From assembly GCF_017357865.1 (NCBI RefSeq), contig NZ_CP060096.1:310001-374000 (forward strand): DNA of 64,000 bases. The letters are read 5' to 3'. This document shows, piece after piece, positions 11,566 through 41,859 of the stretch (the first letter of the stretch is position 1; the number at the start of each line of letters is the position of its first letter). The notes under the pieces are model-generated. The model had not been told where the DNA came from. It saw nothing but the letters and a program-made list of their open reading frames with translations, and did not search any database. The position numbers and the translations under genes were made by a program. This stretch comes from Aceticella autotrophica. Lineage in GTDB: Bacteria > Bacillota > Thermoanaerobacteria > Thermoanaerobacterales > Thermoanaerobacteraceae.

Positions 11566-11568
11566 GAG

Positions 11569-16503: not shown

Positions 16504-16506
16504 GGG

Positions 16507-17068: not shown

Positions 17069-17524
17069 ATGAATAAAGGTATCTTTGCAGCAATTTTAAT
17101 TATTGTCTTTGGTTTAGGTTTTGGAGGAGGTTTTTATACGAGCTATTATAAGTACGTTAAAAAGCCTCAGATGGCAGTGCAGGAACAGGCTAAAAAGCAA
17201 CAGGAAGAACTGAACAAGATGGTTCGCCATGGCAAGATCGTTTCCGTTGCGCCTGACAGAATGGAAATGAAGGTTGAAAAAGGAGGCGGAGACATAGGAA
17301 AAACGATTAAAGCCGAAACAACACAGTTTACCTCAATACAAGTTGGGACAGGTTTTGTCAATAAACCTAATGAGAAAACCGATTTAACAAAATGGTTTAA
17401 AGAAGGCGATACCGTAGATATGCTTTATAAGGATGGTCAGGCATTAGCATTGCACAGGGATCCACGCGCTGACGAAGCACAACAGCAAACACAACCGCCG
17501 GCACAACAGCAAACGCAAAAATAA
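17069..17524 (+). CDS. Membrane-anchored small protein with Q/P-rich tail
   Basis: 151 residues, family not recognised. One N-terminal membrane helix (AAILIIVFGLGFGGGFY), a helical charged linker (KKPQMAVQEQAKKQQEEL), a small beta-rich domain (GKIVSVAPDRMEMKVEKG) that resembles an OB- or DUF5666-like fold, and a low-complexity tail of Q, P and T. I start at the ATG at 17069 behind AAAAGGAGTG; the frame is open further upstream without a good ribosome site. Confidence 0.6.
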   Translation: MNKGIFAAILIIVFGLGFGGGFYTSYYKYVKKPQMAVQEQAKKQQEELNKMVRHGKIVSVAPDRMEMKVEKGGGDIGKTIKAETTQFTSIQVGTGFVNKPNEKTDLTKWFKEGDTVDMLYKDGQALALHRDPRADEAQQQTQPPAQQQTQK

Positions 17525-17532
17525 TTTTTCAA

Positions 17533-17560
17533 TTGACTTTTTCTGTAATCATAATATACT
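17533..17560 (+). promoter_or_regulatory. Sigma-70-type promoter for the stalk-domain gene
   Basis: TTGACT (17533-17538) and TATACT (17555-17560) are separated by 16 bases and lie 37 bases before the GTAATTTTTC-ATG start region of the next gene, which has AAAGGAGG. A separate promoter here fits the lack of coupling to the preceding gene. Confidence 0.55.
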
Positions 17561-17596
17561 GTAAGTGTAACAATATATGAAAGGAGGTAATTTTTC

Positions 17597-18787
17597 ATGC
17601 TAAAACAGAAAACAGCAAAGGCATTGATCGGGGTTATGCTTTGTTCCGCTGCTCTTTCAATGCCTATATCAGGATTGGCAAAACCCACGCATAAAGCAAT
17701 ATTTACGGTTAATCAAACAGTATATAACGTTGACGATAATAATCAGACAATGGACGTAAAAACATTGTTTATAAACAATCGCAGCTATGTGCCTATACGT
17801 TATCTTGCATATGCCTTAGGCGTAAAACCTGATGACATATCATGGAGTGAGGCAACGCAAACTGCAACTTTAACATTAAGGGATGATACTGTAATAACAT
17901 TAAAATTTACAATAGGAAGTTACACATATTATGTCAACAACCAGCCCAAACAAATGGATGTTGCGCCTATAATGGCAAATAACCGAACTTATCTGCCCGC
18001 AAGATTTGTAGCTGAAGCATTCGGTTATAAAGTGGATTGGAATGAGTCAAATCAGGAGGTACTGGTTTATCCGCCGAATACCCCGCAACCAACGCCGCAG
18101 CCTAATCCAACACCACAGCCAATATACAATATAAATGCGGTCAAAAGCGGAAACATACAACCACCTGCCAATGCTATAGCACCGGCTGATGTATGGGGCT
18201 TCCCGCTAAAAGCAACAAGGGCTGAAATGCATATCGGAAGCCGGTATGCCAAAATAACTGACATAAACGGCAATACGTACAATCTTGATTTAGGTGCACC
18301 TTGTTATTTTTGCACAACAAAAGATGTTTATAGCGAAATTCAGAAAAACTATCCCGGGGTATATAACGACAGCAATACACTCCTTACACAATCAATTGGG
18401 ACTGATTCCGCATTCTATATGCCAGTTATACCGGTCATGAAGGCGTTTGGCGTTCCTGAAGGAAACATCGCATGGGACGGAAAGACCTTAATCGTATTTG
18501 GCTGGGATGGCAAAAAAGAAGGATATTTATCATTCTTCGCAAACAGCAAGGCTTCATATGCCAAATGGCATGACGGCGAAACATTAGGAAAGGACAATAT
18601 ATTAAATTATCCACTTCTTGTTATAAATGGCATCCCTTATATCGGTGTATGTTCATGCGATGATTTAGAAGGAACTATATATGCGACTATAGGCAGTTAT
18701 TGCTCTATAATTAACGGAAGGATAGACGGTGGTGGTTATCATGATGAAAATGGCACATTTATAAGAACTCTTAAACCAGGGCATTAA
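17597..18787 (+). CDS. Secreted copper-amine-oxidase-N-type stalk-domain protein
   Basis: 396 residues with a signal peptide (MLKQKTAKALIGVMLCSAAL, cut near SGLAKP). Residues about 30-165 hold two halves of a PF07833-type stalk domain: TLFINNRSYVPIRYLAYALG and PIMANNRTYLPARFVAEAFG. These are common in surface proteins of thermophilic clostridia and are not enzymes themselves. A proline/threonine hinge (TPQPTPQPNPTPQP) leads to a C-terminal domain of about 210 residues that looks like a diverged further stalk repeat (FYMPVIPVMKAFGVPEGNIA). Has its own promoter and terminator. Confidence 0.8.
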   Translation: MLKQKTAKALIGVMLCSAALSMPISGLAKPTHKAIFTVNQTVYNVDDNNQTMDVKTLFINNRSYVPIRYLAYALGVKPDDISWSEATQTATLTLRDDTVITLKFTIGSYTYYVNNQPKQMDVAPIMANNRTYLPARFVAEAFGYKVDWNESNQEVLVYPPNTPQPTPQPNPTPQPIYNINAVKSGNIQPPANAIAPADVWGFPLKATRAEMHIGSRYAKITDINGNTYNLDLGAPCYFCTTKDVYSEIQKNYPGVYNDSNTLLTQSIGTDSAFYMPVIPVMKAFGVPEGNIAWDGKTLIVFGWDGKKEGYLSFFANSKASYAKWHDGETLGKDNILNYPLLVINGIPYIGVCSCDDLEGTIYATIGSYCSIINGRIDGGGYHDENGTFIRTLKPGH

Positions 18788-18811
18788 TTGATATTATTAA
18801 GAGTATTTTTC

Positions 18812-18850
18812 AGGAGTACCGGCGTCAACCGGCGCTCCTTTATTTTTTTT
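18812..18850 (+). terminator. Rho-independent terminator after the stalk-domain gene
   Basis: AGGAGTACCGG and CCGGCGCTCCT form a stem of about 11 bp with one mismatch around CGTCAA-type loop bases, followed by TTTATTTTTTTT. Ends the stalk-domain gene transcript. Confidence 0.8.
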
Positions 18851-18864
18851 GGAGGTGAAAATTG

Positions 18865-20685
18865 ATGAAAAAAAGAATATTTTTATTAACAGTATTTGTG
18901 CTGATGCTGCTTACAAATATGTCATATGCTGATACACTGCTAAACTGGACTGATCCTACAGGCTATCCAACGCCTTTGCATTACAGCGGTCGTGAATATA
19001 CACGTTCACACTATACAGAATATTACTTAAGCGAAGGTGCAGGTTATCAATTTATAGGCAGTGATTATTCGCCTGTATTTGAGCCACCATTTGATATTTT
19101 AGGTAAATCGGCGGGAGGATATACAGCTTATGAAGCCAAAGAAAATTGCGATGATCGTTTAGGAAGCATATTCGATTCATTAGGCGTTATTTATGACAAC
19201 GGATATTGGATTGTAAGTCCTGCTTATTGGAACAGTCAAGGATGGAATGAAATATTTAAACCTACCACACCCGACAGCAACAGCGAATGCATCTTTGATG
19301 TGCCTGTAACCACCGGAATAGATACATCCGGAATAAGTAAAGGACTTTATACAATAAACAATCCGAAATGTTTTATCAACGGTCCGGGTTTTGAAGCGGG
19401 CGGATATGATGGAAATACCGGATACCACTGGAAAGCATCAGGACAAAACGCGCCTATACAATTAACAAAATCTTATGCAAGTGGACTGTTTAAACAAAGC
19501 ACTACCACTGAGGCAAAAATATACTTTAATTATTTATATAATATAGCGGTAACAAGATTAGACGACAACGGCAATGGCAATTGGACGGCGTATGTCTTTA
19601 ATTACACACCGTATAATGCAAAAGATGTCCATTTAAGGGCTTATATTGTACAAGACGGAGAATATACATTAGCAGCTGAAACAACAACTGATATAGGCCC
19701 TTATGCGGTAGGTGACGGCAGCGGCGGCTTCTTACAACCGGCTTATCGACCTCATTTCGGTGAAGGCGTTTCTTCTGCACAAGAAGGTTTAACAGAAATG
19801 ATTAAGTGGAACTTTAATGCACGTGCAGCCGCCGGCAGTTCAAGCTATAAAATTCTTGTAACAGCTGATATTTCACTTGACCAAAACGGAAACCCAACCG
19901 GTGAACCGTTGAAAACAGATGCTGCTTATGGCGGTCATTCTTATCCGAGCGGGTATTTTGCGCCAAACGGAAAGTCAGAAGTTGCACCAGACACACAGTA
20001 CGTACGCAGTGGACTGAACGTATCTGATGGTTTGTCAGATAATTATATATTCAGCGATCAGAAACAGCCACCGTCAAGCACGCCTGCATCTAACGATATA
20101 CCAATCCCGCCTAAAGACCTTGCTGTTACAGACGTCAGCGTAACTGATGAAGGAAACAATGTCGCAAACGTAAAATCAACATTTAAATCAACGTTTAATG
20201 TAGGTGGATATGCCAATATTACCTTATATGAAGTAAATACAGATTTAAATTATCCGCCTACAGTGATAAAAAGCGATAATATTTTTCTTCCGCCCAACGG
20301 AACGGTTGTAAAAGATTGGGGCGATATTGGAATGGGTGAAGATTCATATAAACTTATAGTATCAATAGATTATGACTATAATGGATCAGGTGATTGGAAG
20401 AACGATAGCAACTGGTATCCTGAACAGTTTGCAGGCAATGACGGAAAGATGTATACAGAAGCAACATATACCAACAACAAAGCCGAGGGAAGTTTTAAAG
20501 GACAGTTTATCAGACCCACTTATATCACTAATTCAGAAATCCAATCTGCGTATTATCCACCTGTAAAGTATACGGAAACACCAATATATAAAACCGAAAC
20601 CGAGGATGTCTACGGCTGGAAGAAAGTACCTTATATAAAAGAACAGGCTGTAGATAAAAAACCGCGTATTAGATTAATCCAATAA
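18865..20685 (+). CDS. Secreted protein of unknown function with CARDB-like region
   Basis: 606 residues; signal peptide MKKRIFLLTVFVLMLLTNMS with cleavage near SYADT. The body is rich in Y, G, N and T, typical of a cell-surface beta-protein. Residues about 415-530 (DLAVTDVSVTDEGNNVANVK, then a beta pattern and PPNGTVVKDWG) look like a CARDB/bacterial adhesion repeat. The start is ATG at 18865, seven bases after GGAGGTG. It is followed closely by another secreted protein gene. Function unknown; the Tad context suggests a surface appendage or adhesin. Confidence 0.6.
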   Translation: MKKRIFLLTVFVLMLLTNMSYADTLLNWTDPTGYPTPLHYSGREYTRSHYTEYYLSEGAGYQFIGSDYSPVFEPPFDILGKSAGGYTAYEAKENCDDRLGSIFDSLGVIYDNGYWIVSPAYWNSQGWNEIFKPTTPDSNSECIFDVPVTTGIDTSGISKGLYTINNPKCFINGPGFEAGGYDGNTGYHWKASGQNAPIQLTKSYASGLFKQSTTTEAKIYFNYLYNIAVTRLDDNGNGNWTAYVFNYTPYNAKDVHLRAYIVQDGEYTLAAETTTDIGPYAVGDGSGGFLQPAYRPHFGEGVSSAQEGLTEMIKWNFNARAAAGSSSYKILVTADISLDQNGNPTGEPLKTDAAYGGHSYPSGYFAPNGKSEVAPDTQYVRSGLNVSDGLSDNYIFSDQKQPPSSTPASNDIPIPPKDLAVTDVSVTDEGNNVANVKSTFKSTFNVGGYANITLYEVNTDLNYPPTVIKSDNIFLPPNGTVVKDWGDIGMGEDSYKLIVSIDYDYNGSGDWKNDSNWYPEQFAGNDGKMYTEATYTNNKAEGSFKGQFIRPTYITNSEIQSAYYPPVKYTETPIYKTETEDVYGWKKVPYIKEQAVDKKPRIRLIQ

Positions 20686-20701
20686 AAAGGGGGTGATAAT
20701 T

Positions 20702-22150
20702 TTGAAAAAAGTTTGTTTGATTTTATTATTGTTTTTTTGTTTAAATACTGTAACAGTAGTTTCGGCAGACAGCACGCAAAAACAATGGACAACATTGGCA
20801 ACATCTGTAAATCAAGACGGTACAACAGTTAATACAAATGTTTTTGGATATTATGAAAATGTAGATAATTTCGGACAGGTATTTATTGAATGCGACCCTA
20901 ACACAGGGCAAGAAACAGGAAATGCTTATATTCCAAATGTTAAAATAGGCACTAAAACAATCCAAAAACAAATAGGCTTTGATAAAAAGCAAGAAGTAGA
21001 TTTAACCACTGTTAAGGAAGTAAAACCTGCACAGGTACAAATAATATATCCTAATGTTCCTACCAGTATAAATTGGGACAATGAATTAGGTGCATACGTA
21101 ATAGGAAGCACATTGACATTGCCTTATAGTCCCGTTTTGAAATATATATTGCAGGGGAATTTGCCTGATTACGACCTTTGCATAGTGCAAATCAGCAATC
21201 CCAATAATTTTCCCATAAAAGCAAATTTTGTGTATCACGAAAATTCGTATTCTGTTTCATTAGGTGCAAATGAAACCAAATATGTTAAAGTAGATTCTTA
21301 TACAAATGATTTTTTCTTCGGTTATTCTTGTTCAACACAGCTTGATAGCAATAATTTACCGGCTGATTATCCAAGTGATTATTTAAACAATCTTATTTTC
21401 AAAGCAGTACCTGCTGATGGTATTTTAAATCCTTCGCCTGATGAATATGGACCGTCACTTCCATTTGGGATTTGTTTTAAAATCCATGGATATGCTAATG
21501 CTGGGCAATTTAATTATCAAATAGACATGAAAATAGTATATGACTTTAATGCCAAAAAATTTGTAAAATATAGCAGTATTGTATCTGAATATGACTATTA
21601 TTTACGCAAAGATGTGTTGCTTCCCGAGAACAATGCATCAATTGCCTTTGAAAACAGTGTAATAGATCACTTTAATAATGTATGGGGATTTTATCCACCA
21701 ATCTTTGATAGCAATACTGATATGTATCAAGTAATATATCTTCCGTCTTTTACATCTGATTATACGAATTCTTGGACTGGAATGATACGATCTATTTGTT
21801 ATTGCCAATATCCGGGAAGCACCGTATATTCTTCTTCACCATATACAGCAAGATCTACTGCATGGGTACCTTCACCTGCAACTTTATTCTATGCAACAGA
21901 TGATCCTTCCAACATATATGGTGATATTGGATATAACGGTGATTTAAAACATAAACTTGACACCTGCAAAATGCACTTAGATCAGTATCGTTTTATACCA
22001 ACTGACGGAAACGTAGGATATTTGCAAAAATATTCAGTTGACGGAATTTTTACCCTTTATGAGGAACAAGAATGGAATTGCAACTTGCCCGGTGGCAGTC
22101 CTAATAATCAGGGATATTATTGTACTTATTTTATATATAAACAAGAATAA
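20702..22150 (+). CDS. Secreted protein of unknown function
   Basis: 482 residues starting at TTG 20702 six bases behind GGGGGTG. Signal peptide MKKVCLILLLFFCLNTVTVV, cleaved near SADS. The mature part has no motif I recognise; it is aromatic- and asparagine-rich, with Cys pairs (CYCQYPGS, CKMHLD), and probably beta-structured. It shares style with the preceding gene and ends at a strong terminator, closing the surface-protein unit of the Tad locus. Confidence 0.6.
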   Translation: MKKVCLILLLFFCLNTVTVVSADSTQKQWTTLATSVNQDGTTVNTNVFGYYENVDNFGQVFIECDPNTGQETGNAYIPNVKIGTKTIQKQIGFDKKQEVDLTTVKEVKPAQVQIIYPNVPTSINWDNELGAYVIGSTLTLPYSPVLKYILQGNLPDYDLCIVQISNPNNFPIKANFVYHENSYSVSLGANETKYVKVDSYTNDFFFGYSCSTQLDSNNLPADYPSDYLNNLIFKAVPADGILNPSPDEYGPSLPFGICFKIHGYANAGQFNYQIDMKIVYDFNAKKFVKYSSIVSEYDYYLRKDVLLPENNASIAFENSVIDHFNNVWGFYPPIFDSNTDMYQVIYLPSFTSDYTNSWTGMIRSICYCQYPGSTVYSSSPYTARSTAWVPSPATLFYATDDPSNIYGDIGYNGDLKHKLDTCKMHLDQYRFIPTDGNVGYLQKYSVDGIFTLYEEQEWNCNLPGGSPNNQGYYCTYFIYKQE

Positions 22151-22193
22151 GGTAACAAAACCGCAGATTGTCAAAGTCAATGTAATTATCTTT

Positions 22194-22230
22194 AAGACAA
22201 GTGAAATAATCATTTCCTTGTCTTTTTTTT
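22194..22230 (+). terminator. Strong Rho-independent terminator
   Basis: AAGACAAG-T-GAAAT-AATC-ATTTC-CTTGTCTT followed by T8. Perfect 8-bp and 5-bp stems; ends the secreted-protein operon. Confidence 0.9.
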
Positions 22231-22267
22231 ATGCAAGGCAAAAAAAACAATTCAAGGAGTGATCAGA

Positions 22268-23833
22268 TTGATAATTTCAATTTTTTCGCCAAAAGGCGGG
22301 GTAGGAAAAACAACAATAACATTAGCACTTGCAGATTCTTTATCAAAGGACAAAAAGGTGTGTGTGGTGGAATTTGATTTTTCACCCGGCGATTTTGCAT
22401 CAACGCTTAATGTAGACAAAAACAAAAACATTCTGCGTGCTATTAAATATGGCATTAAAAAAACAGCACAAAAACCGCAGAATAAAAACTTTGACGTTAT
22501 AACAGGCGGATATCCTGATACACATGAAAAAATAAGCACTGATGACCTTGACAGGCTTATGGATGAACTTTCATCGGTTTATGATATGATTTTATTCGAT
22601 ATCCAGCCAGGCTTAATAGAAAATGCCGTAGTAATTCTTGAAAGATGTGATTATGCTTTTGCGATAGCAGAAGATACAGAAGCAATAAAGGTCAGAATGG
22701 CACGTATTTTACAATGGCTGAAAATTGATTTTAATAAGATTAAAATTATTTTAAACAAAGCCAAAGGCAATCTTAAAAACATAGGAGAAATAGCAAGCTA
22801 TACAATACCTTATTTTGGCGAAAACATAACATATGAAAACAGGGGTATGCGAAAAAGTATTCAAACAATAGCAGATATGCTCGAAGGCAAAAAGCCCGGT
22901 TTTTTTGCAAAACCGCTTAAAGAAGTTTCTCCTGAACAAATCGAGTATTTTATAAAGGAAAGTTTAAAGAATTTTCCTCAAGATTCACCGGAAGACCCTA
23001 ATAAAAACAATACAATTAATCAAACAATTTTTAACGAAAACAAGGAGGGCAAATCAATGGTATATATTAAAACAAATCTTAATACGTTAAATAATTTTTT
23101 ACAAGAAGAATTGTGCAATATAAATGATATAAAAATAGATTTAACTGATAATTTTGATGAATGTGATACAGCTGTTGTTTCGGCTTTAAGCAAAGAAGAA
23201 ATTGACAGATACGCTCTTTCTAACAAAAAAATTATTCTTTTAACTTTAGAACAATACAAGGAATATGCTCAAAGCAAAGGTATAAAAATTATTTTCAGCG
23301 ATAAATGTTCAGATGCTGACTTGATTAATGCAATAAGAAAAAACATAGAAGAAAAAACTAATGTTACAGATTCTGCTGTTGAGTCAAAAGATATACCTAT
23401 TAGTGAAGGTGATATTCTAAAAGATACACCCGTTATAGCGCAAAATGAAAATACAATAAATATTTCAGAACCACAGATGAGTGATGATATTATTAAAGAG
23501 AATGATAATATTGTTAAAGAAGAGGAAATTATCAGAGAAGAATCTGTTAACCATGAAGAAACAAACAATAAAGAAATATCCGATAAAACAGATATTGAAA
23601 ATATCAGTGCTTTATCGGATGAGATTAATGCTGTTTTAAATAAGTATATCAGTTCTTTAAAAGAAAAGATAGAAGAAAAATATATCGACGAAATCAAAAA
23701 ATTAAAAGAAAGCAACCGCAGTCTTTTACAAGAAATAAAAGAAAAAAACAATACTCTAACAAGGGTAGAAAAAGAGCTTAAGGAACGCAGAGAAACAGCG
23801 GAACAGCTAAAGAAACTGCTTTTAAGCATGTGA
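22268..23833 (+). CDS. CpaE/MinD-like P-loop ATPase with C-terminal coiled coil
   Basis: About 521 residues. Deviant Walker A SPKGGVGKTTITLALADSLS at the N-terminus and EFDFSPGDFAS and LFDIQPGL strands identify a ParA/MinD family ATPase; in Tad loci this is the CpaE/TadZ role, placing the pilus machinery in the cell. Residues about 250-400 are acidic and weakly conserved, and the last 90 residues form a coiled coil (EKIEEKYIDEIKKLKESNRS). Start is TTG at 22268, six bases after AAGGAGTG; the GTG at 22259 is too close to that site. Confidence 0.75.
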   Translation: MIISIFSPKGGVGKTTITLALADSLSKDKKVCVVEFDFSPGDFASTLNVDKNKNILRAIKYGIKKTAQKPQNKNFDVITGGYPDTHEKISTDDLDRLMDELSSVYDMILFDIQPGLIENAVVILERCDYAFAIAEDTEAIKVRMARILQWLKIDFNKIKIILNKAKGNLKNIGEIASYTIPYFGENITYENRGMRKSIQTIADMLEGKKPGFFAKPLKEVSPEQIEYFIKESLKNFPQDSPEDPNKNNTINQTIFNENKEGKSMVYIKTNLNTLNNFLQEELCNINDIKIDLTDNFDECDTAVVSALSKEEIDRYALSNKKIILLTLEQYKEYAQSKGIKIIFSDKCSDADLINAIRKNIEEKTNVTDSAVESKDIPISEGDILKDTPVIAQNENTINISEPQMSDDIIKENDNIVKEEEIIREESVNHEETNNKEISDKTDIENISALSDEINAVLNKYISSLKEKIEEKYIDEIKKLKESNRSLLQEIKEKNNTLTRVEKELKERRETAEQLKKLLLSM

Positions 23834-23851
23834 AAGGAGTGAGAGAAAATA

Positions 23852-24280
23852 ATGTGGTATTTATATATTCCCGCCTTATTGTTAACGGCTTATGCAGCTT
23901 ATACCGACGTCAAAAGAAAAGAAATAGACAATTGGGTATCTATCGCAATATTATCATATGGCATTCTTATAGACGGTATACTATACCGTCAAAAATTCGT
24001 GGAAAGTTTTGTTTTTATGATTTTGATTTTTGCTGTATTAATAACCATATACTATATAACACCTGAAAGCCTTGGCGGTGGTGATATTAAAATACTTACC
24101 GCATTGGCTTTTGTATATGGACATAATATAATCCCTTTGATATTTATAGCAGGTATGATTAATCTTGTTTATGGACTTATCAAAGGCATTAAAGAAAAAA
24201 CGTATTTAAAAACAAAAACAATCTTTGCACCTGCTATCTTTGCAGGAACAATTGCCACAACATTTATAGGACGCTTTTAG
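23852..24280 (+). CDS. Second prepilin peptidase (A24 family, short form)
   Basis: 142 residues, several membrane segments. Catalytic aspartates in YTDVKRKEIDNW (about residue 20) and in the GxGD-type box LGGGDIK (about residue 76). Same build as the peptidase at 13526-14002 but only distantly alike, so the locus has two enzymes, perhaps for different pilins. The start ATG lies behind AAAGGAGTGAG and 18 bp after the CpaE-like gene. The last codons overlap a terminator hairpin. Confidence 0.8.
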   Translation: MWYLYIPALLLTAYAAYTDVKRKEIDNWVSIAILSYGILIDGILYRQKFVESFVFMILIFAVLITIYYITPESLGGGDIKILTALAFVYGHNIIPLIFIAGMINLVYGLIKGIKEKTYLKTKTIFAPAIFAGTIATTFIGRF

Positions 24281-27137: not shown

Positions 27138-28166
27138 ATGTTTAAAACAGCTTTGGATTTGGGATATGGTTATGTAAAAGGAATTAATGAGAAAGGGAAG
27201 CAAATTCTTTTTCCTTCTTTGGTCGGTAATGCGTACCAGAGGAATTTTACAGGATTGTTCGGACAAAGGTTTAATCACATTATTGATAACATGCATGTTG
27301 TTTTGAATAATGGCAGAGAAAAGCAAGAAGAATATTTTATTGGAGAACTGGCAAGGAGAGAAGGAAGAAATGTTAGTTATGTTTTTGATGAGGATAAGGT
27401 TAATCATCCTAACACAAAAGCATTACTTGCAAGTGCTTCAGCATTGTTATTTCCCGAGGATGAGCAACCAATACATCTGGTGTCAGGTCTTCCGTTGGAG
27501 CAATACGTTCACCAAAGAAATGAGTTTAAGGATATGATAAAGAATTTCAGTGCCATAGTGGAATTTAAAGGATATGATTTTCTGAAAGCAATAAAGTTTG
27601 ATAAAGTGACGATCTTTCCACAGGCAGCCGGTGCTGTATATTATGCTATAATGGATAATTTACAGAAATATTTTATAAAAGGAAGCTATATTGGATTAAT
27701 TGATATAGGATATAAGACTACAGACTATATTGTTTTTGTAGTAGATGAAAAGCTTTCATTAAGAGAAGACCTTTCAGGTACTTTTAATATAGGAATGTTT
27801 GTTTTAAATAATGCTGCGGACAAATTATTCACACAAAAAACTGGTTCAAAGCTTGATATATCTGAACTTATGCAACTTGTTAGTGAAGGCAGTATATTTT
27901 ATAAAGGAAAGGTTTTAAATTTTGAAGAAGAGCTGAATGAAGTAAAATCGGAAATATCACGTGTAATTCAAGATAGGATAAAGGCAGTATGGGGTAATAA
28001 ACTGGATTTCTTTAATACAATTTTTTTTGCAGGAGGCGGAGGATTAAGATTGTTTGAAAGTTTAAAAGATGTATATGAAAATACTGTTTTGGTTAAAAAT
28101 TCGCAGTTTGCAAATGCTAAAGGATTCCTAAAGGTTGCAGAAATAGAGGAGAAAAAAGGAAATTAA
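27138..28166 (+). CDS. parM: ParM-like actin-type plasmid segregation ATPase
   Basis: 342 residues with the actin-fold nucleotide-binding pattern: phosphate-1 loop TALDLGYGYVKGI at the N-terminus, phosphate-2 IGLIDIGYKTTDYIVF near residue 190, and the adenosine motif TIFFAGGGGLRLFESL near residue 295. This is the StbA/ParM/Alp family that polymerises to push plasmid copies apart. It stands behind GAAGGAGG, followed by a small gene, a cluster of GTCGGACA repeats and a ParR-like gene, making a complete type II partition locus and strong evidence of plasmid origin. Confidence 0.85.
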   Translation: MFKTALDLGYGYVKGINEKGKQILFPSLVGNAYQRNFTGLFGQRFNHIIDNMHVVLNNGREKQEEYFIGELARREGRNVSYVFDEDKVNHPNTKALLASASALLFPEDEQPIHLVSGLPLEQYVHQRNEFKDMIKNFSAIVEFKGYDFLKAIKFDKVTIFPQAAGAVYYAIMDNLQKYFIKGSYIGLIDIGYKTTDYIVFVVDEKLSLREDLSGTFNIGMFVLNNAADKLFTQKTGSKLDISELMQLVSEGSIFYKGKVLNFEEELNEVKSEISRVIQDRIKAVWGNKLDFFNTIFFAGGGGLRLFESLKDVYENTVLVKNSQFANAKGFLKVAEIEEKKGN

Positions 28167-28189: not shown

Positions 28190-28369
28190 ATGATCGAAAA
28201 AATAGTTAAAGAAAAAGAATTGGATTATAAAAATTTATGGGAACTTATGAAGCAAATGGTGGATTATTATACGAAAGAGAAGAAATATTTAACGAGAAGA
28301 GAGATTAAGTATATAATCAGGGTATGTGAGAATAAAAACCCTTCCATTCCCATTAAACAGGACGTATAA
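28190..28369 (+). CDS. Small charged protein of 59 residues between parM and the iterons
   Basis: ATG at 28190 behind AAAAGAGGG. The product (MIEKIVKEKELDYKNLWELM, then KQMVDYYTKEKKYLTRREIK) is helical and basic, with no recognised domain. It lies 23 bp after parM and ends just before the first GTCGGACA repeat, so it is likely a plasmid-maintenance accessory gene. Confidence is limited by its size. Confidence 0.5.
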   Translation: MIEKIVKEKELDYKNLWELMKQMVDYYTKEKKYLTRREIKYIIRVCENKNPSIPIKQDV

Positions 28370-28374
28370 ACTTT

Positions 28375-28545
28375 GTCGGACATAGCAGAGTAAGAATAAT
28401 TAATATTTGTCGGACAAAATTATATTTTTATATGCTTTAACACTTTAAAATCAAGGGATTTGAACGTCAGACAAGGTGTGTCGGACAAAATGATTATTTA
28501 ATGGCTATAAATATAGGTAGGATGAGGGTTTGATTGTGTCGGACA
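28375..28545 (+). repeat. GTCGGACA iteron cluster (candidate parC centromere/operator)
   Basis: Four exact GTCGGACA copies on the plus strand at 28375-28382, 28409-28416, 28480-28487 and 28538-28545, plus one imperfect copy GTCAGACA at 28466-28473. Copies are extended by T/G before and AAAAT or ATG after. They lie between parM and the ParR-like gene. In ParMRC systems ParR binds direct repeats of this kind to link DNA to ParM and to control the operon. Confidence 0.8.
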
Positions 28546-28564
28546 TGTTTTTGAGGTGGTAATA

Positions 28565-28873
28565 ATGAAAGATGAAAAATATAGTTTTAGGATAAGAGAG
28601 GGTGACAAAGATATAAAAGAGATACTTTTTAAACTTAACACTAATGAACGTTCTGATTTTATCAGAAATGCGATACGTTTTTATGCAAATTATCAAGACA
28701 AGATTAATAATATTGATAATAAATTAGAAAAAATATTAAAAAGATTAGAAATAAAATTGGAGAATTTGTCAGTCAGTCCATCAGTCAGTCAATCAAATGA
28801 TGAAGAAAATCAGAAAACTGATGAAACAGAAAAATTGCTTGCAGAAAGCGTAATGGATATATTATCTCTATAA
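28565..28873 (+). CDS. parR: ParR-like DNA-binding protein (ribbon-helix-helix type)
   Basis: 102 residues from the ATG at 28565, seven bases after GAGGTGG. KYSFRIREGDKDIKEILFKL, then NERSDFIRNAIRFYANY, is a ribbon-helix-helix pattern (beta strand, then two helices); the middle is coiled coil (NNIDNKLEKILKRLEIKLEN), and the acidic C-terminal tail would contact ParM filaments. Located directly after the GTCGGACA repeats. The ParR name is inferred from build and position. Confidence 0.65.
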   Translation: MKDEKYSFRIREGDKDIKEILFKLNTNERSDFIRNAIRFYANYQDKINNIDNKLEKILKRLEIKLENLSVSPSVSQSNDEENQKTDETEKLLAESVMDILSL

Positions 28874-28996: not shown

Positions 28997-29161
28997 ATGG
29001 ATAAAACAATGAGAAAAACTTTGTTATATAAAACTGGTGTCGAATATGGCGATTATACTATAAATCACGTAGAAGGATGTGCTCATGGCTGTAATTTTCC
29101 TTGCTATGCGTTTATGCTATCCAAACGATTTGGAAGACTGACTGCTCTTCGCCACAAGTAA
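28997..29161 (+). pseudogene. 5' fragment of a radical SAM gene cut by a 259-bp element
   Basis: Good AAGGAGTG site and ATG at 28997. The product MDKTMRKTLLYKTGVEYGDY, then TINHVEGCAHGCNFPCYAFM, carries the three-cysteine iron-sulfur motif (C-AHG-C-NFP-C) of a radical SAM enzyme, then LSKRFGRLTA. At 29147 the sequence becomes the 3' hairpin of the structured repeat element and the frame ends at TAA 29159-29161. More than 80% of the gene is missing. Confidence 0.7.
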
Positions 29162-29405
29162 TGAAGGTTCTGTTTACTTGCAGGTTTCTTCTGCACTCTC
29201 AAGATGCGTTGTAGGATTAATCTGTCTATTGCATCTTCTACAACATACAGGCACTAACCTGTTTCAACAGACTTTACTATCTATACCTCTTACGAGATAT
29301 TAGCGATAGCATAAGGCAATGAGTCTAATTCCCTGGGATTAACTTTATATCACCATAATGCTTATCAATTTCTTTGTTTTCTTTAATATTATTATATCAT
29401 TATAA
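29147..29405 (-). repeat. 259-bp structured element, copy 1 (minus orientation)
   Basis: About 90% identical to 32832-33090 in opposite orientation, and the same length. Read on the minus strand it ends in the hairpin CTTCATTAC-TTG-TGGCGAAG, inserted into the radical SAM gene. Inside, GTTGTA and TACAAC interleave with AGATGC and GCATCT, which makes an H-type pseudoknot. There is no coding capacity. It may be a TnpA/TnpB- or IscB-mobilised non-coding element. A further free copy of the 3' hairpin lies at 29440-29459. Confidence 0.75.
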
Positions 29406-29439
29406 CTTGTGAAAATCAAATGCTAATATAAGCATTCAT

Positions 29440-29459: not shown

Positions 29460-29730
29460 CTTTCTGCTAAGCTATTGGTAAAAAAGATACACAAGATTTA
29501 TTTTTTAAGTGTACAAAGACAGCAGTGAAATAAGGAATAATATAAGCAAAACATCGTATTGACCTGAAAAACGAAAAAGTAGTAGTTCGTAAGTGTATAT
29601 AAAAATTTTAAAAGCAAGAATTAATATTGTAAGAGCTTTAACAGATAAGGCTCCCTTTTTTTATGTTTTTTGTTAAGAAATACTTATAGAATAAGATAAG
29701 AATAGGATTCTATATGTATTTCTATATGGT

Positions 29731-29911
29731 ACGCCGCCGCCCTTTGTTTTAAAACGTGCCTCACCCCTGGCTTTCATGGCTTTGCCAGAAAGCCAGCACT
29801 AACGTGTTCCGTCAGAAGCCCACCCCCTCTCATCATAGATGTATTAATGGGTATGAGGGGGTGGGCTTCTGACTCCAGGGTTCGGCACTAATTTTTGAAG
29901 GGCGGCGACGT
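29731..29911. other. GC-rich nested palindrome upstream of the replication-relaxation gene
   Basis: Outer arms ACGCCGCCGCCCTT (29731-29744) and AAGGGCGGCGACGT (29898-29911) pair over 14 bp with one mismatch. Inside are a 13-bp hairpin with one bulged A (29767-29796: CTGGCTTTC-A-TGGC-TTT-GCCA-GAAAGCCAG, given in parts) and a perfect 19-bp hairpin (29811-29829 with 29855-29873; GTCAGAAGCC start, GGGCTTCTGAC end). This makes a three-way or four-way cruciform in otherwise AT-rich DNA. Candidate origin, transfer site or structured RNA. Confidence 0.7.
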
Positions 29912-30015
29912 ATTTGTTGCAGTTGCAAGCTATGGAATCTATAAATGTTTACGTATTTCTTTATAGTTTTATATGACAAGAATTCTTGTGAGCATTTCTT
30001 ATGGAGGTGAGGTTT

Positions 30016-30663
30016 TTGCAGATTACAGACAGGGATATAGAGATTTTGTTGTGGATAAATAGAATGAGATTTGTCACTGCTAAACAGGTAAGCAAAAAAT
30101 TTAAAATAGGCATTAAATCAGCATACAGGGTTTTAAAAAGATTATGCGATGATAGATTTCTATATCACTCAAGAAGTTATATGTTTGAGCCAGGAGTTTA
30201 TCTATGTACAAAAAGAGGAAAAAGAATTTCAGGTTCAACTTTATGGGTACCCGAAAGACCAAGTGAATATCTGGATAAAGCATTATATAAGCATACATTA
30301 GCAGTAGTAGATTTAAGTATTGAACTTGAGAAGTTGGGTGGATGGATAAGTGAGCGGGAATTAAGAAAAGGTCATAAATTTAATGAAATGGTTCCCGACG
30401 GTGTATTAGTTAAGGATAATAAAAAAGTAGCAATTGAAGTAGAACTGACACTTAAATCCAATAAAAGGCTTGATAAAAAGATAGAATATTACAAAGGATG
30501 TATTGATTATTATGAGGTATGGTATTTTGTTGAATCGGAGGCAATTTTTGAGGCAGTAAAGAAAAGGGTTTATAATCTTTTATTTGTTAAGATTTATTAT
30601 TTAAAAGAAGCAAAAGGAACGGATTTTACATTTTCGCTTTGCTTAAATCAAAAATCCGAATAA
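30016..30663 (+). CDS. Replication-relaxation family protein
   Basis: About 215 residues. The N-terminal winged helix ITDRDIEILLWINRMRFVTA, then KQVSKKFKIGIKSAYRVLKR, is followed by PDGVLVKDNKKVAIEVELTL, then KSNKRLDKKIEYYKG, the layout of PF13814 proteins, which are needed for replication or relaxation of some Gram-positive plasmids. I choose TTG at 30016, seven bases after GGAGGTG; an ATG at 30001 lies inside that site. It sits between two large nested palindromes and before a VirD4-like gene, which supports a plasmid/conjugation role. Confidence 0.75.
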   Translation: MQITDRDIEILLWINRMRFVTAKQVSKKFKIGIKSAYRVLKRLCDDRFLYHSRSYMFEPGVYLCTKRGKRISGSTLWVPERPSEYLDKALYKHTLAVVDLSIELEKLGGWISERELRKGHKFNEMVPDGVLVKDNKKVAIEVELTLKSNKRLDKKIEYYKGCIDYYEVWYFVESEAIFEAVKKRVYNLLFVKIYYLKEAKGTDFTFSLCLNQKSE

Positions 30664-30730: not shown

Positions 30731-30756
30731 AAAGTACTCGTAAGAGTACTTTTTTA
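30731..30756 (+). terminator. Second hairpin terminator
   Basis: AAGTACTC-GTAA-GAGTACTT followed by TTTT. Immediately precedes the second nested palindrome. Confidence 0.75.
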
Positions 30757-30757
30757 A

Positions 30758-30914
30758 AACTGCCTCCCGTTCTTTAGATTATACGCCTGCTCGGTTTACA
30801 GTCAAGGTGCCTTCAAGCATATCCTCCCTCGCTTACACTCGGTCCGGTATCCCTCGACTCCACCTTGACTTCCAATTCGCAGGCTCTGCTTTCTTTTCCT
30901 GCCGGGAGGCAGTT
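30758..30914. other. Second long nested palindrome
   Basis: Three successive arm pairs on a common axis: AACTGCCTCCCG (30758-30769) with CGGGAGGCAGTT (30903-30914), 12 bp perfect; GCCTGC (30785-30790) with GCAGGC (30879-30884); AGTCAAGGTG (30800-30809) with CACCTTGACT (30861-30870), 10 bp perfect; the apical loop is about 50 nt. No convincing gene. Together with 29731-29911 it brackets the replication-relaxation gene. Confidence 0.65.
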
Positions 30915-30953
30915 CTGATTTTTGATTTTTTAAGGAGGTGCTTAAAAGTAAGC

Positions 30954-31142: not shown

Positions 31143-31162
31143 TTTATGTGAGGTGTTATATA

Positions 31163-32830
31163 ATGTTTAACAACCAGTCTGATGAAATAATTTTGTTTAT
31201 ATTTATTTTGTTACTTGCTGCAGTTTTTTTGCCCGGGTTTGTTTTCTTTGCTTTAATTTACGGAATAATACTGGTTTTTAAAAAGAAACTGCCTGTATAT
31301 ATATTTTTTAGTATTTTAACGCTGGCTGATATATTTTGTATAAAAAACTTTCAGGAGTTTTTTTTAAAATACTTTACAGATATATGGCTTATTTATAAAG
31401 GAATTTATTACGGCAAACTGCCGGAAATTGATATAACGACAATGATTAGGGTTGGGCTGCCCACAGGACTTTTTTTGTGTTTGATGCTTGAGGGATATTT
31501 ATTGACAATACCTGAATGGGCTAAAAAAACAAACAAAGCAAAGAATGATGTAAAGCCGGATATGAAGAAATTAAAAAATATAAAGCATTATATAAAGCAT
31601 TCAAGTGACAGTACAATTATAGGTCTTGATAGCAGGGCTAATATTATCGAGATTGCTGATGAAGAGTTAAATGGACACTGTCTTATACTTGGGGCTACAG
31701 GTGCAGGAAAAACTACTACTTTGATGAATTTTATTGAAAGTGCTGCTGCAAGGGGGATTCCAGTAATAATTGTTGATGGTAAAGGAGAAAAGGATTTTCC
31801 TGACAAGGTGAAAATACTTTCTGAAAGATATAAAAGGAAGTTTTATTTGTTTTCTATGAGCAATCCAAACATGCATTATAATCCGCTAAGACATGGCAAT
31901 TTTACTGAGCTTAAGGATAAGCTTATAAGTATTACAGAATGGTCAGAACAGCATTATAAGCTGATGGCGGAGAGGTACCTTCAATCGGCGATAAGAATGC
32001 TTTTAATAGGGTCTAATGATATAGACCTTGTGAATGTTGCGAATAAGCTTGATGCTAATGACCTTGTTCTTATGGCGAGAGATTACGGTATTAAAGGTAA
32101 AATTGATCAGCACGAGCTGACAAGGTTTAAAGATATGATAGACAATTCTAAGAAAGATATTGGCGGACTAATTAACCGCCTTGCAGTGTTTTCAGAGAGC
32201 GAGATAGGTGAATTATTAGCAGATACAAAAGATGAGAATACAATTGATTTAATAAATGCCGTGGAAGAAAATGCTGTTGTATTTTTCAGTTTTGATAGTT
32301 TAAGGTTTGCAGAATACTCAAGGCTATTGGGAAGATTAACGGTAATCGATTTAAAAACAACTGCGGCAAGAATGTTCGGAAATAACAAAAAGATATTTGT
32401 GATTTTTGATGAGTTTGGGGTTTTTGCCGGTCCTCAGGTTACAGATTTTATAAACAAGTCGAGGGCAGCAGGTTTTCATGTTATTCTGTCTACTCAGGAG
32501 CTTGCAGATTTAAGAATAAAAGGTAAGACAGAGCTTATGGAGCAGATATTGGGCAATACAAACGTCAAAATCATACACAGACAGGATGTACCGACTTCGG
32601 CAGAATTATTGTCATCACTTATTGGCACAGAGAATGATATGATGATTACGCATCAAGTAAACGGTGTTGAGACGACAGGAATGGGTACTATTAAAGAAGA
32701 GAAAAGTTTTATTGTGCATCCTGATGAGATAAAGAGATTAAAAAGAGGGGAGGCTTTTATTGTTAAGAAGTTTCCGGAGTTTTTTGTTGAAAAGTTGTGG
32801 GTTAAAAAAATTAATGATTATATTTGTTAA
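31163..32830 (+). CDS. VirD4/TraG-like type IV coupling ATPase
   Basis: 555 residues. Three N-terminal membrane segments (about 5-45, 50-70, 105-120) precede a hexameric ATPase: Walker A LILGATGAGKTTTLMNF near residue 175 and Walker B IFVIFDEFGVFAGPQ near residue 411, followed by SRAAGFHVILSTQELADLRI, typical of conjugative coupling proteins. These dock relaxase-DNA complexes to a type IV channel. No relaxase or channel genes remain in the window. Start is ATG at 31163 behind GTGAGGTG. The 259-bp element is inserted two bases after its stop. Confidence 0.8.
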   Translation: MFNNQSDEIILFIFILLLAAVFLPGFVFFALIYGIILVFKKKLPVYIFFSILTLADIFCIKNFQEFFLKYFTDIWLIYKGIYYGKLPEIDITTMIRVGLPTGLFLCLMLEGYLLTIPEWAKKTNKAKNDVKPDMKKLKNIKHYIKHSSDSTIIGLDSRANIIEIADEELNGHCLILGATGAGKTTTLMNFIESAAARGIPVIIVDGKGEKDFPDKVKILSERYKRKFYLFSMSNPNMHYNPLRHGNFTELKDKLISITEWSEQHYKLMAERYLQSAIRMLLIGSNDIDLVNVANKLDANDLVLMARDYGIKGKIDQHELTRFKDMIDNSKKDIGGLINRLAVFSESEIGELLADTKDENTIDLINAVEENAVVFFSFDSLRFAEYSRLLGRLTVIDLKTTAARMFGNNKKIFVIFDEFGVFAGPQVTDFINKSRAAGFHVILSTQELADLRIKGKTELMEQILGNTNVKIIHRQDVPTSAELLSSLIGTENDMMITHQVNGVETTGMGTIKEEKSFIVHPDEIKRLKRGEAFIVKKFPEFFVEKLWVKKINDYIC

Positions 32831-32831
32831 T

Positions 32832-33090
32832 TTATAATGATATAATAATATTAAAGAAAACAAAGAAATTGATAAGCAGTATGGGGATATAAAGTTAATC
32901 CCAGGGAATTAGACTCATTGCCCTATGCTATCGCTAATATCTCGTAAGAGGTATAGATAATAAAGTCTGTTGAAACAGGTCAGTGCCTGTATGTTGTAGA
33001 AGATGCAATATGCAGATTAATTGTACAACGCATCTTGAGAGTACGAGAGAAACCTTCAAATAAACAGAACCCTCGTCACTTGTGGCGGGG
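32832..33090 (+). repeat. 259-bp structured element, copy 2 (plus orientation)
   Basis: Inverted relative to copy 1 (29147-29405). It begins just after the coupling-protein stop and ends with the 9-bp hairpin CCTCGTCAC-TT-GTGGCGGGG. Internal conserved segments include GGGAATTAGACTCATTGCC, CTCGTAAGAGGTATAGATA and the pseudoknot arms GTTGTA/TACAAC and AGATGC/GCATCT. Sequence changes between copies in the end hairpin keep pairing at most positions. Function unknown; no protein is encoded. Confidence 0.75.
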
Positions 33091-33092
33091 AG

Positions 33093-33639
33093 TATGTCAG
33101 TGGGTTCAGAGGTGGGTAGTTGATGTTCCCGGACATTATGAGACGAGACAGGTATGGGTCGACACTTCACACTGGGAGACATATAAAGAGTGGGTTAAAA
33201 GCGGGTATTGGGATGAAGTGCACGGCACTATTTCAGTCTCAAAAACACCTCAGTATGTGTTTACGAACAAGCACACCCCCCCGGACGGGTCTGCGATATG
33301 ACTTTGAATATTTCTTATGCGCTTAATAAGAAAGTCACTAACATTAGAGCAATACATGTTGTGAACAGGTATCAAAACAAAGGCGTGCTTTATGTTGAGC
33401 CCTATTCTGCTGTAAAGAACTTTGGAGGCACTTCAGGAAGTGCTGTGCTGAAGTTCCAGTATGAAAAGCCGGGCGATGAAAACTCAACCCTCCATGTCTA
33501 CTTTGACCTTGAAGGCGGAGGCTCATTTGAAATACAGATGAACATCCCTATAAACGGAATTTACGCAGATTCAAAGTTCAACATTCCTGACTCTGTGTTC
33601 AAGAAGTCAGTCAAGGATTCAGAGGTGATAACATTTTGA
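33093..33639 (+). pseudogene. Frameshifted secreted/surface protein fragment
   Basis: From the end of the 259-bp element one frame reads CQWVQRWVVDVPGHYETRQV, then WVDTSHWETYKEWVKSGYWD and so on to TNKHTPP at a run of seven to eight C (about 33277-33284), then stops soon after. The other frame continues GRVCDMTLNISYAL, then NKKVTNIRAIHVVNRYQNKG and SVFKKSVKDSEVITF with TGA at 33637-33639. One tryptophan-rich beta protein was probably split by slippage in the C run, and its 5' end was removed by the element. Family not recognised. Confidence 0.55.
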
Positions 33640-34037
33640 TGATTAAGATTTTGATTTTAATTATCCTCTTTTTTGCTGCTGTAGAAGACATAAAAAAGAT
33701 GGAGGCAGGGTAGATGTATCCCACCTCCATCTTTGTTCTTTCTTTTGCCAATTTCTTTTTGAAGTCCTATATAAACTTGAAGTTTTATCTGCTTAATTCC
33801 TTTTTAGTATTTGCTGTCCTTTTTCTTTTCTGGCTTCTTGGAGGAATAGGCGGAGGAGACGTAAAAGTATTAACTGCGCTGTCTTTCTACGCTGGCTTTA
33901 AAATATGGGATATTCTTTTATTTTCATCTGTGGTTTTTCTCCTCTACTCTCTCATTCTGCGAAAGTTTAAAACGAAACTTCCTTTTATGCCTGCACTTTT
34001 TGTTGGAACACTAGTAGGTTTATTTATAGATTTTTGA
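33639..34037 (+). pseudogene. Prepilin peptidase gene with an in-frame stop
   Basis: ATG at 33639 overlaps the previous stop and starts MIKILILIILFFAAVEDIKK, holding the first catalytic Asp. TAG at 33711-33713 interrupts the frame, which then continues in phase MYPTSIFVLSFANFFLKSYI with the second aspartate box GGIGGGDVKVLTALSFYAG. Thus both catalytic parts exist but on two pieces. This is the third A24 peptidase of the window, decayed. The region after it (34038-34409) has a short adhesin-like tail frame ending IYDNSKSQIIGPKF at about 34177 and a GCCCTGCA/TGCAGGGC hairpin at 34184-34221, and no supported gene. Confidence 0.7.
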
Positions 34038-34515: not shown

Positions 34516-35571
34516 ATGAGTCAATATGATAATATCATAGAATTGAGAAAATATAAACACCTTACAGCAAAAGAAAGATACAAAATAGAGATATTGCTGA
34601 AGGAAGGACTAAAACCTTATGAAATTGCACAACGAATGGGAAGAGGGACCAGGACAATTGAAAGAGAAGTAAATAGAGGGAAGGTAAGACTTCTAAATTC
34701 TGATTTAACATATAGAGAAGAGTACTGTGCAGATGCAGGACAGCGCATATATAATGAAAATGCAAAGAATAAAGGACCTGGTCTAAAGATAGGGAAAGAC
34801 CATAAACTGGTTAAATATATAGAAAACAAGATAATCAAAGAAAATTACTCACCTGATGCAGTAATTGGAGAGATAAAAAAAAAGAAAATAAAATTTAAAG
34901 CCCAAATATGTACAAAGACATTATATAACTATATAGATCGGGGTGATGTATTTCTAAAACTTACAAATAAAGATCTTCCCGTAAAAAAAGAAGGAAAAAA
35001 GAGAGACTATAAGAAAATAAAAATACCACATAAAAATCTTAAAGGAACAAGCATTGAAGAAAGACAACCAGAGGTAGATAACAGAAAAGAATATGGGCAC
35101 TGGGAAATGGATTGTGTTGTAGGAAAACGAGAAGGGAAAGGTGCGGTATTACTGGTATTAAGCGAAAGAAGCATACGAGAAGAAATCATTATTAAAATGC
35201 CGGCAAAGACGCAAGAATCAGTTATTGCATCACTTGACAGATTAGAAAGAAAATATGGAAAAGCATTTAAAGAGAAATTCAAAACAATAACGGTTGATAA
35301 TGGCAGTGAATTCTTGGATTATGAAGGAATAGAAAGGTCTATAAAGTATAAAGAAGAGAAAAGAGTCAAATTGTATTATGCACATCCTTATAGCTCATGG
35401 GAGCGAGGGACAAACGAAAATATCAACAAACTAATAAGGCGGTTTATACCAAAAGGGATGGATATAAGCAAGATAAGCAATGCGAGGATAAAATACATAG
35501 AAAATTGGATAAACAGCTATCCAAGGAGGATATTTGGATATAAATCAGCAAAAGATATGATGACTGCATAA
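34516..35571 (+). CDS. IS30-family transposase
   Basis: 351 residues, full length. N-terminal helix-turn-helix YKHLTAKERYKIEILLKEGL, then KPYEIAQRMGRGTRTIEREV. The DDE core is intact: Asp in YGHWEMDCVVGKREG, Asp in TVDNGSEFLDYEG, and Glu in PYSSWERGTNENINKLIRRF. It catalyses cut-and-join of the element. Start ATG behind AAAGGAG. Nearly identical to the interrupted copy at 40801, so the two arose recently. Confidence 0.95.
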   Translation: MSQYDNIIELRKYKHLTAKERYKIEILLKEGLKPYEIAQRMGRGTRTIEREVNRGKVRLLNSDLTYREEYCADAGQRIYNENAKNKGPGLKIGKDHKLVKYIENKIIKENYSPDAVIGEIKKKKIKFKAQICTKTLYNYIDRGDVFLKLTNKDLPVKKEGKKRDYKKIKIPHKNLKGTSIEERQPEVDNRKEYGHWEMDCVVGKREGKGAVLLVLSERSIREEIIIKMPAKTQESVIASLDRLERKYGKAFKEKFKTITVDNGSEFLDYEGIERSIKYKEEKRVKLYYAHPYSSWERGTNENINKLIRRFIPKGMDISKISNARIKYIENWINSYPRRIFGYKSAKDMMTA

Positions 35572-40800: not shown

Positions 40801-41678
40801 ATGAGTCAATATGATAATATCATAAAATTGAGAAAATATAAACACCTTACAGCAAAAGAAAGATACAAAATAGAGATATTGCTGAAGGAAGGACTAAAAC
40901 CTTATGAAATTGCACAACGAATGGGAAGAGGGACCAGGACAATTGAAAGAGAAGTAAATAGAGGGAAGGTAAGACTTCTAAATTCTGATTTAACATATAG
41001 AGAAGAGTACTGTGCAGATGCAGGACAGCGCATATATAATGAAAATGCAAAGAATAAAGGACCTGGTCTAAAGATAGGGAAAGACCATAAACTGGTTAAA
41101 TATATAGAAAACAAGATAATCAAAGAAAATTACTCACCTGATGCAGTAATTGGAGAGATAAAAAAAAAGAAAATAAAATTTAAAGCCCAAATATGTACAA
41201 AGACATTATATAACTATATAGATCGGGGTGATGTATTTCTAAAACTTACAAATAAAGATCTTCCCGTAAAAAAAGAAGGAAAAAAGAGAGACTATAAGAA
41301 AATAAAAATACCACATAAAAATCTTAAAGGAACAAGCATTGAAGAAAGACAACCAGAGGTAGATAACAGAAAAGAATATGGGCACTGGGAAATGGATTGT
41401 GTTGTAGGAAAACGAGAAGGGAAAGGTGCGGTATTACTGGTATTAAGCGAAAGAAGCATACGAGAAGAAATCATTATTAAAATGCCGGCAAAGACGCAAG
41501 AATCAGTTATTGCATCACTTGACAGATTAGAAAGAAAATATGGAAAAGCATTTAAAGAGAAATTCAAAACAATAACGGTTGATAATGGCAGTGAATTCTT
41601 GGATTATGAAGGAATAGAAAGGTCTATAAAGTATAAAGAAGAGAAAAGAGTAAAATTGTATTATGCACATCCTTATAG
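40801..41678 (+). pseudogene. IS30 transposase, 5' part (interrupted)
   Basis: Identical to the intact transposase except for about one residue (Lys for Glu near residue 10) through YYAHPYS. The frame then runs eight codons into the transposon end and stops at 41706. It lacks the catalytic Glu, which lies in the right-hand fragment at 45078-45255, so it is inactive unless the transposon leaves precisely. Confidence 0.92.
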
Positions 41679-41859
41679 TGTTATACAGCAAATTATTTCA
41701 ATATAAAAAATGATATAAAAAGCAAAATAATTTAACCTTATCCATTATGTAAAGTTAATTAATTTTCATATCCATGTATAAGATTGGTTAATCTTGCCTA
41801 CAATTATAGAAAAAAATAATGGGGCGGTAAAATTAATTACCTCCCCAAGAAAGGTCACA

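Follow-up and report, generated by a model that had tools for sequence, protein, structure and literature searches.

Within a 64-kb stretch of chromosomal DNA (the window), a GC-rich nested inverted repeat lies in AT-rich surroundings immediately upstream of a gene whose protein family is named for replication and relaxation, and the question raised by this locus is what such a structure does there; a preliminary description had offered four possibilities, namely a replication origin, a single-strand origin, a transfer origin or a large structured RNA. From sequence comparison, we consider it very probable that the element is the transfer origin (oriT) of a mobilizable MOBC-type element residing in the chromosome, and that it would be nicked inside its inner hairpin, P3.

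The element and its neighbouring genes

The nested repeat is built on several levels, P1, P2, P4 and P3 (Table 1). When folded with RNA parameters, the + strand gave -103.1 kcal/mol (z -11.5) and the - strand -108.5 kcal/mol (z -12.4), and none of 200 dinucleotide shuffles was as stable on either strand. In a scan of both strands of the window, the element took ranks 1 and 2 among 4,256 windows of 181 nt, the best-folding window outside it reaching -71.3. Its G+C content of 0.54, against 0.335 across the window, is the peak of the window; values at least as high occurred at 6 of 63,820 positions, those of the element being counted in. The nested GC-rich structure was thus present where it had been claimed, and the perfect 19-bp hairpin was confirmed; the outer arms, previously given as 14 bp, measured 15 bp with one mismatch, and the bulged second hairpin appeared in the predicted fold with the refinement of an extra middle stem, P2.

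Table 1. Positions of the element, its stems, the predicted nick core and adjoining genes in the window
Feature	Position	Strand	Basis or remark
Whole nested inverted repeat, proposed oriT	29730..29912	.	Fold and inverted-repeat detection; unique in genome
Outer stem P1, left arm	29730..29744	.	Pairs with 29898-29912, 15 bp, one mismatch
Outer stem P1, right arm	29898..29912	.	Pairs with 29730-29744
Middle stem P2, left side, 5 + 4 bp	29756..29766	.	Predicted fold
Middle stem P2, right side	29878..29888	.	Predicted fold, pairs with 29756-29766
Side hairpin P4, bulged	29767..29796 (about)	.	Predicted fold
Inner hairpin P3	29811..29873	.	Perfect 19-bp stem 29811-29829 / 29855-29873, 25-nt loop starting TCATCAT
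Predicted nick core GGGTGGGCTTC	29815..29825	-	Homology with the CloDF13 nick
MOBC-type relaxase gene, PF13814 Replic_Relax, TTG start	30016..30663	+	Profile matches
VirD4/TraG-type coupling-protein gene (T4CP)	31148..32830	+	T4CP domains
Actin-like ParM-type gene, associated partition module, outside oriT proper	27138..28166	+	Domain match
Small gene, kept beside relaxase gene in G004 and G010	28556..28873	+	

The element is single-copy in the 2.27-Mb genome, its sole second match being its own inverted arm, so it is not a member of a scattered repeat family, a prospect that the preliminary description had raised. Its DNA matched none of 72,556 plasmid and 50,697 phage records and none of 19 other family genomes. 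No Rfam family was found at gathering score, and a permissive Rfam scan returned two microRNA-family matches only, both far under gathering score. A miniature transposable element, or another repeat lying by chance before the gene, would explain the terminal inverted repeats and the lack of coding capacity, and a true repeat family of ~280 bp does lie nearby; this explanation has negligible likelihood, however, given the single copy, the lack of plasmid or phage DNA matches and the recurrence of the same architecture, in other sequence, at the same position on unrelated plasmids (see below).

The ~280-bp repeat has 9 matches in the genome, 82-100% identical, and two inverted copies (92%), at 29145-29408 and 32829-33092, stand on either side of the proposed oriT with its relaxase and T4CP genes; a radical-SAM gene, complete in the genome G004 (L180 11922-12770), is cut short by the left copy. 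A second nested GC-rich inverted repeat, single-copy, lies between the relaxase and T4CP genes at 30752-30916 (-54 kcal/mol, z -5.3).

The relaxase gene most likely starts at the TTG at 30016, behind GGAGGTGAGG and about 104 bp past the element. Its product matched PF13814 with 31.9 bits (cut-off 25.3) and the NCBI MobC model NF041423 with 47.6 bits (E 1.2e-12), a score under the subfamily cut-off of 200; the relaxases of two MOBC-typed loci, L131 and L128, scored similarly low against NF041423 (43.3 and 51.4). When 22 relaxase homologues were aligned, P127, D128, E141, E143, K147 and Y170 were invariant and R151 near-invariant, the motif PD...ExE...K consisting of PD-(D/E)XK-like active-site residues invariant over all 22; we take these residues to correspond to active-site residues of TraX. 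The residue after R151 is leucine in the window and several homologues and tyrosine in others. This position is presumably in register with Y181 of TraX, a tyrosine reportedly important in that protein; the Y181 equivalent appears to be leucine in the window subgroup and, if this register is right, Y181 would not be essential in all MOBC enzymes.

The N-terminal part of the relaxase alignment profile matched winged-helix and MarR-type DNA-binding proteins (E 1e-4 to 1e-3), the same search returning no nuclease-domain match, and a single-sequence structure model reached a pLDDT of 35.9, too low for use. By family, the relaxase probably combines a winged-helix N-terminus with a PD-(D/E)XK-type nuclease and is not an HUH enzyme; together with its own coupling protein it is, judged from sequence, a MOBC transfer module of the type of pAD1 TraX and CloDF13 MobC. 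Replication/relaxation is the name of the database family (PF13814); the MobC model and plasmid typing point to a relaxase. Relatives of the relaxase and close relatives of the T4CP were found in the same 3 of 20 family genomes; by tblastn at E 1e-3, relaxase relatives occurred in 43 plasmid records, 34 of them typed mobilizable, and none was found in viral_contigs.

No VirB4-type match (PF19044) was obtained in this genome, and a transfer channel would therefore need to come from a co-resident helper, the module being mobilizable at most, or a remnant. VirB4 matches were present in 12 of the 20 family genomes searched, and matches to the actin-like protein in 14; most of these genomes are without a relative of the window relaxase. 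A transfer origin that is no longer functional, its structure kept, is a sub-case counted inside the oriT reading. The missing VirB4, the repeat elements that interrupt the neighbourhood and a core base in P3 unlike that of 23 of 24 loci would fit such a remnant; against it, the relaxase and coupling-protein reading frames are open, P3 has no mismatch, and the deviating core base is matched by a change in the opposite arm, which keeps the pair intact. We hold this sub-case to be extremely improbable.

Several further features of the surroundings were recorded. Between the actin-like gene and the small gene that follows it, several copies of TTTGTCGGACA at 28367-28502 resemble a ParM-type centromere, and the small gene may encode a ParR-like partner of the ParM-type protein. 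Tad/type II secretion-like pilus genes (10687-24280) stand beside the ParM-relaxase-T4CP module in the window and in G004 (L180, L207), and some were also found on a short contig of the genome G010 (L182). In G004, L207 (G004:C1:44000-61999) encodes, within about 30 kb of the MOBC module, a MOBL relaxase and a second T4CP together with an M23 peptidase and two ATPases, one VirB4-type and one T2SSE, so that this genome would hold two kinds of transfer-start modules side by side. Downstream of the window's T4CP gene, fragments at 33035-34037 resemble a stretch of G004 (L180 5714-9366) that encodes the end of a large surface protein and a prepilin peptidase, which would suit a second but broken copy of the module. 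The window also holds two near-identical transposase genes (34516-35571 and, in a form shortened at its end, 40801-41706), a 33-repeat CRISPR array detected with Rfam (45631-47785) and, at its start, a Cmr-type Cas gene cluster (227-8243).

The same architecture beside transfer operons elsewhere

Recurrence of the structure was surveyed with a detector for an outer inverted repeat with a span of 80-240, enclosing a strong hairpin. With the hairpin loop limited to 45, a site was found in 7 of 8 loci and in 0 of 50 shuffles of each, L133 being missed; the limit was raised to 60 for all loci and controls. Plasmid loci were chosen for variety from the hit lists with their spacers unexamined, the first six by rank, and CloDF13 was added. 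The resulting 22 loci (219,586 bases) yielded 22 nested sites, exactly one each, and all of these lay in the spacers before the relaxase/coupling-protein operon (26,284 bases), with none in the other ~193 kb; counted as spacer here are L168, where a small annotated hypothetical gene overlaps the element, and L174, where two small genes separate it from the relaxase gene, and the sites of L173, L176 and L178, with outer arms of just 9-10 bp, may be spurious. Polarity and position of the element followed the transfer operon on all 22 plasmids. Plasmid typing assigned 14 of them to MOBC, 7 to the non-mobilizable class and 1 to MOBQ; CloDF13 is among the seven, which means that this typing misses some mobilizable plasmids. 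In the window, the detector returned one site in 64 kb, and in G004 and G010 a nested element occupies the same place.

As a random control, we used 117 loci from a 16-base exact pattern scan of genome_contigs, taken as chance matches. A nested site was present in 42 of these, 40 of them in G+C bins of at least 0.6; in bins below 0.6, 2 sites were found in about 186 kb. Because control sites cluster at high G+C, the detector is informative only at moderate G+C.

The structure does not accompany PF13814 genes at large, most of 32 loci checked from genomes of the phylum being without it. Six of the 32 have a coupling-protein match, and among these the element was found only in L222 (41% relaxase identity); L214, L216, L220 and L230 had none, and L209 is cut by a contig end. 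Five of the 26 loci without a coupling-protein match contained a nested site, in three cases at a G+C of 0.66-0.70 (L212, L217, L223), in one about 4 kb from the gene (L229) and in one downstream of it (L215). A search for the same structure next to PF13814 genes had been suggested as a check; it was present on the 22 plasmids and in G004, G010 and L222, and absent from most of the phylum loci. By these comparisons the element probably goes with the MOBC/VirD4 subset near the window relaxase and not with PF13814 as a whole. The L215 site (G187:C1, 9476-9701, on a contig of 60 kb) is a very strong nested repeat of another design than the MOBC elements, with a 27-bp hairpin and a 3-nt loop.

These results bear on the proposal of a replication origin, double- or single-strand and of rolling-circle type, left by an integrated plasmid. 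Hairpin-rich single-strand origins exist, and the family name of the adjoining gene speaks of replication; yet that gene is of relaxase type and accompanied by a coupling protein, primase-type genes are found separately on several of these plasmids, and it is the transfer operon that the element tracks in polarity and position. We found nothing in support of replication among the four functions first proposed and rate it highly improbable, whereas a transfer origin is strongly supported by the adjoining MOBC-type relaxase and T4CP genes and by the placement on 22 of 22 plasmids.

Pairing, the conserved core and the predicted nick

P3 hairpins from 24 loci were aligned on a conserved GAC core, giving 360 pair cells; L182 and L133, near-copies of L180 and L167, were excluded from the pairing counts. 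Watson-Crick pairs filled 93.3% of the cells, a percentage that is partly circular because the loci were picked up by complementarity, compared with 54% on average and 64% at most when the 3' arms were dealt among loci in 2,000 swaps. Cells altered on both sides numbered 113, against a maximum of 50 in the arm swaps. The arm sequences vary between plasmids yet stay complementary, so that both the structural conservation in homologues and the compensatory changes that had been suggested as checks were found; the independent part of the comparative evidence is the one-site-per-locus result.

Within the core, column +1 was C:G in 24 of 24 loci and column 0 was A:T in 23, the exception being the window, where an unbroken C:G pair takes its place. 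At column +6, the 5' arm carried C in 22 of 24 loci although its partner was unpaired in 10 of 24; retention of this C despite a lost partner suggests recognition of the 5' arm by its sequence.

The mismatches bear on the possibility of a large structured RNA, either a 5' leader or a small RNA controlling the relaxase gene, which would suit the very stable fold of both strands and the short distance to the relaxase start codon. On the gene strand, G-T occupied 2 of the 360 P3 cells and 3 of 25 mismatches over P1 and P3, and mismatches that are not rich in G-U argue against an RNA from the gene's strand. A-C mismatches, equivalent to G-T on the other strand, made up 9 of the 25, the cells being too few to weigh the excess over 3; an RNA from the opposite strand, where these nine would be G-U, is accordingly less well excluded. 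In addition to the lack of an Rfam family at gathering score, the element precedes the coupling-protein gene and not the relaxase gene in CloDF13-like plasmids, and at other loci 100-750 bp separate it from the next gene. A structured RNA is, in our estimate, very unlikely, and for the gene's strand the mismatch pattern speaks against it.

If the element is a transfer origin, a nick can be predicted by homology. The nick sequence of CloDF13, which we take to be GGGTG/GTCGGG (the slash marking the nick), occurs as an 11-mer once in that plasmid, at 9752-9762, inside its nested element, and the arm containing it is the counterpart of the left P3 arm of the window, read on the - strand. The window nick is therefore predicted between 29820 and 29821 on the - strand, GGGTG/GGCTTC; the letters of GGGTGGGCTTC are also present on the + strand at 29859-29869. 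The predicted nick core reads GGGTGGGC in the window against R/GTC in the others, with pairing intact, and by inference the putative consensus on the nicked strand is GNGNR/GTC. With this nick direction, the recipient would first receive DNA from the left of the element, the relaxase and coupling-protein genes arriving last.

The predicted direction also bears on a single-stranded promoter in the leading region. Frpo is a single-stranded promoter formed by the fold of the incoming strand, and here, too, folded DNA adjoins a transfer operon; leading regions are, moreover, the subject of PMC11541004. By the predicted nick direction, however, the relaxase operon would enter last, and conservation falls on the GAC core and loop and not on promoter hexamers. 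An Frpo-like function in place of a transfer origin is extremely unlikely, and such a promoter role could co-exist with oriT function.

In 22 of 24 loci, the predicted strand ends met flush across the nick on co-folding, 4 bases being paired to either side of it, and in the window the gain of co-folding over separate folding was -31.6 kcal/mol (DNA parameters). This outcome follows mostly from placing the nick inside a hairpin; it is geometry, not proof.

Known MOBC systems and a proposed mechanism of transfer

The MOBC prototype is the oriT2/TraX system of pAD1 from Enterococcus faecalis, which by description shares with the window a relaxase gene of PD-(D/E)XK type that adjoins a large inverted repeat and has a TraG-like gene nearby. 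The oriT2 repeat is said to contain the nick, and the suggestion that it helps to join the strand ends has reportedly been made already; a large inverted repeat at a MOBC oriT is thus already known from pAD1, and the window element would be a further member. The key papers here are Francia and Clewell 2002, Francia et al. 2013 and Nunez and de la Cruz 2001. Around the elements of our loci, exact 7-mer direct repeats were found in the right flank at 7 of 23 loci and in the left flank at 2 of 23, and none was detected at the window element, so that by this measure such repeats are no general feature of the set; at pAD1, by contrast, the available text of PMC12857230 gives five direct repeats bound by TraX, 70-120 bp from the nick. 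According to the same text, pAD1 TraX and CloDF13 MobC both belong to MOBC and are relatives of restriction endonucleases, TraX being of PD-(D/E)XK type (PMC12857230).

CloDF13 (MobB/MobC) has a 134-bp nested element with a GAC core on the same strand before its mob operon. Unlike the window, where the relaxase gene precedes the T4CP gene, its coupling-protein gene comes first; its P3 loop is long and holds a hairpin of its own, and beyond the core it has no sequence in common with the window. The CloDF13 record (L164, NC_002119) lacks annotation of both mobB and mobC, which were placed by tblastn with L167 proteins; PLSDB types this plasmid as non-mobilizable, yet tblastn finds both genes, in pieces.

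The closest plasmid relaxase (35% identity) is that of Carboxydocella thermautotrophica pCCELLA01, typed mobilizable, MOBC, in which relaxase-T4CP order and nested element are as in the window and the loop starts ATCATC; this is a free plasmid, whereas the window module is chromosomal, and GGGTCCT direct repeats, lacking in the window, follow its element on the right. The chromosomal module of G004 and G010 is closer (relaxase 56%, T4CP 63% identical), with the window's gene order and a nested element with a CATCAT loop; around the P4 region, CCTCACCCC...GGGTTCGG is, by eye, common to the window and both of these genomes. In G004 and G010, unlike in the window, the T4CP gene follows the relaxase gene without a spacer, and G004 also encodes VirB4 and a MOBL relaxase no more than about 30 kb away.

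As a transfer origin, the element would be bound by the relaxase, most likely through its putative winged-helix domain, and nicked in one strand within P3; the neighbouring VirD4-type coupling protein would then take this strand to a secretion channel supplied by a co-resident helper. The nested stems would present the nick and bring both strand ends together. We tentatively extend this scheme to a broader proposal, possible though doubtful as it stands: MOBC transfer origins may be one structural family, from enterobacterial plasmids to Clostridia, that works as self-splints. With the nick lying in the inner stem, the 3' end would fold back as a hairpin once transfer is over, while the free arm captures the 5' end, the outer stems draw the ends together, and a ligase or the relaxase seals them without a covalent protein-DNA link.

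In the literature searched, which left out most subscription papers, we found no description of a nested design shared across MOBC plasmids or of a nick core in the inner stem; nor did the available text of PMC12857230, PMC5704250, PMC7431656, PMC8152469, PMC9299015, PMC5714925, PMC5587640, PMC7117660, PMC11097999 and PMC7755788 contain a shared MOBC oriT structure. PMC5704250 notes that mobilizable plasmids known to encode a VirD4 of their own are few and that these also possess a MobC relaxase, a description that the window gene pair fits.

MOBC relaxases are among the least understood, and in the available text of PMC12857230 their rejoining of DNA and recruitment of the strand are open questions, no covalent DNA intermediate having been seen for TraX. 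If true, the self-splint would answer how MOBC systems rejoin DNA, the question left open there. The structure and the putative nick-core consensus are common to CloDF13, Paenibacillus, Bacillus, Lactobacillaceae, Staphylococcus and Clostridia; such a shared design would make MOBC transfer origins recognizable from their sequence, would give the direction of DNA entry and would make the rejoining question testable. In this genome, the element would mark a chromosomal region as a mobilizable element.
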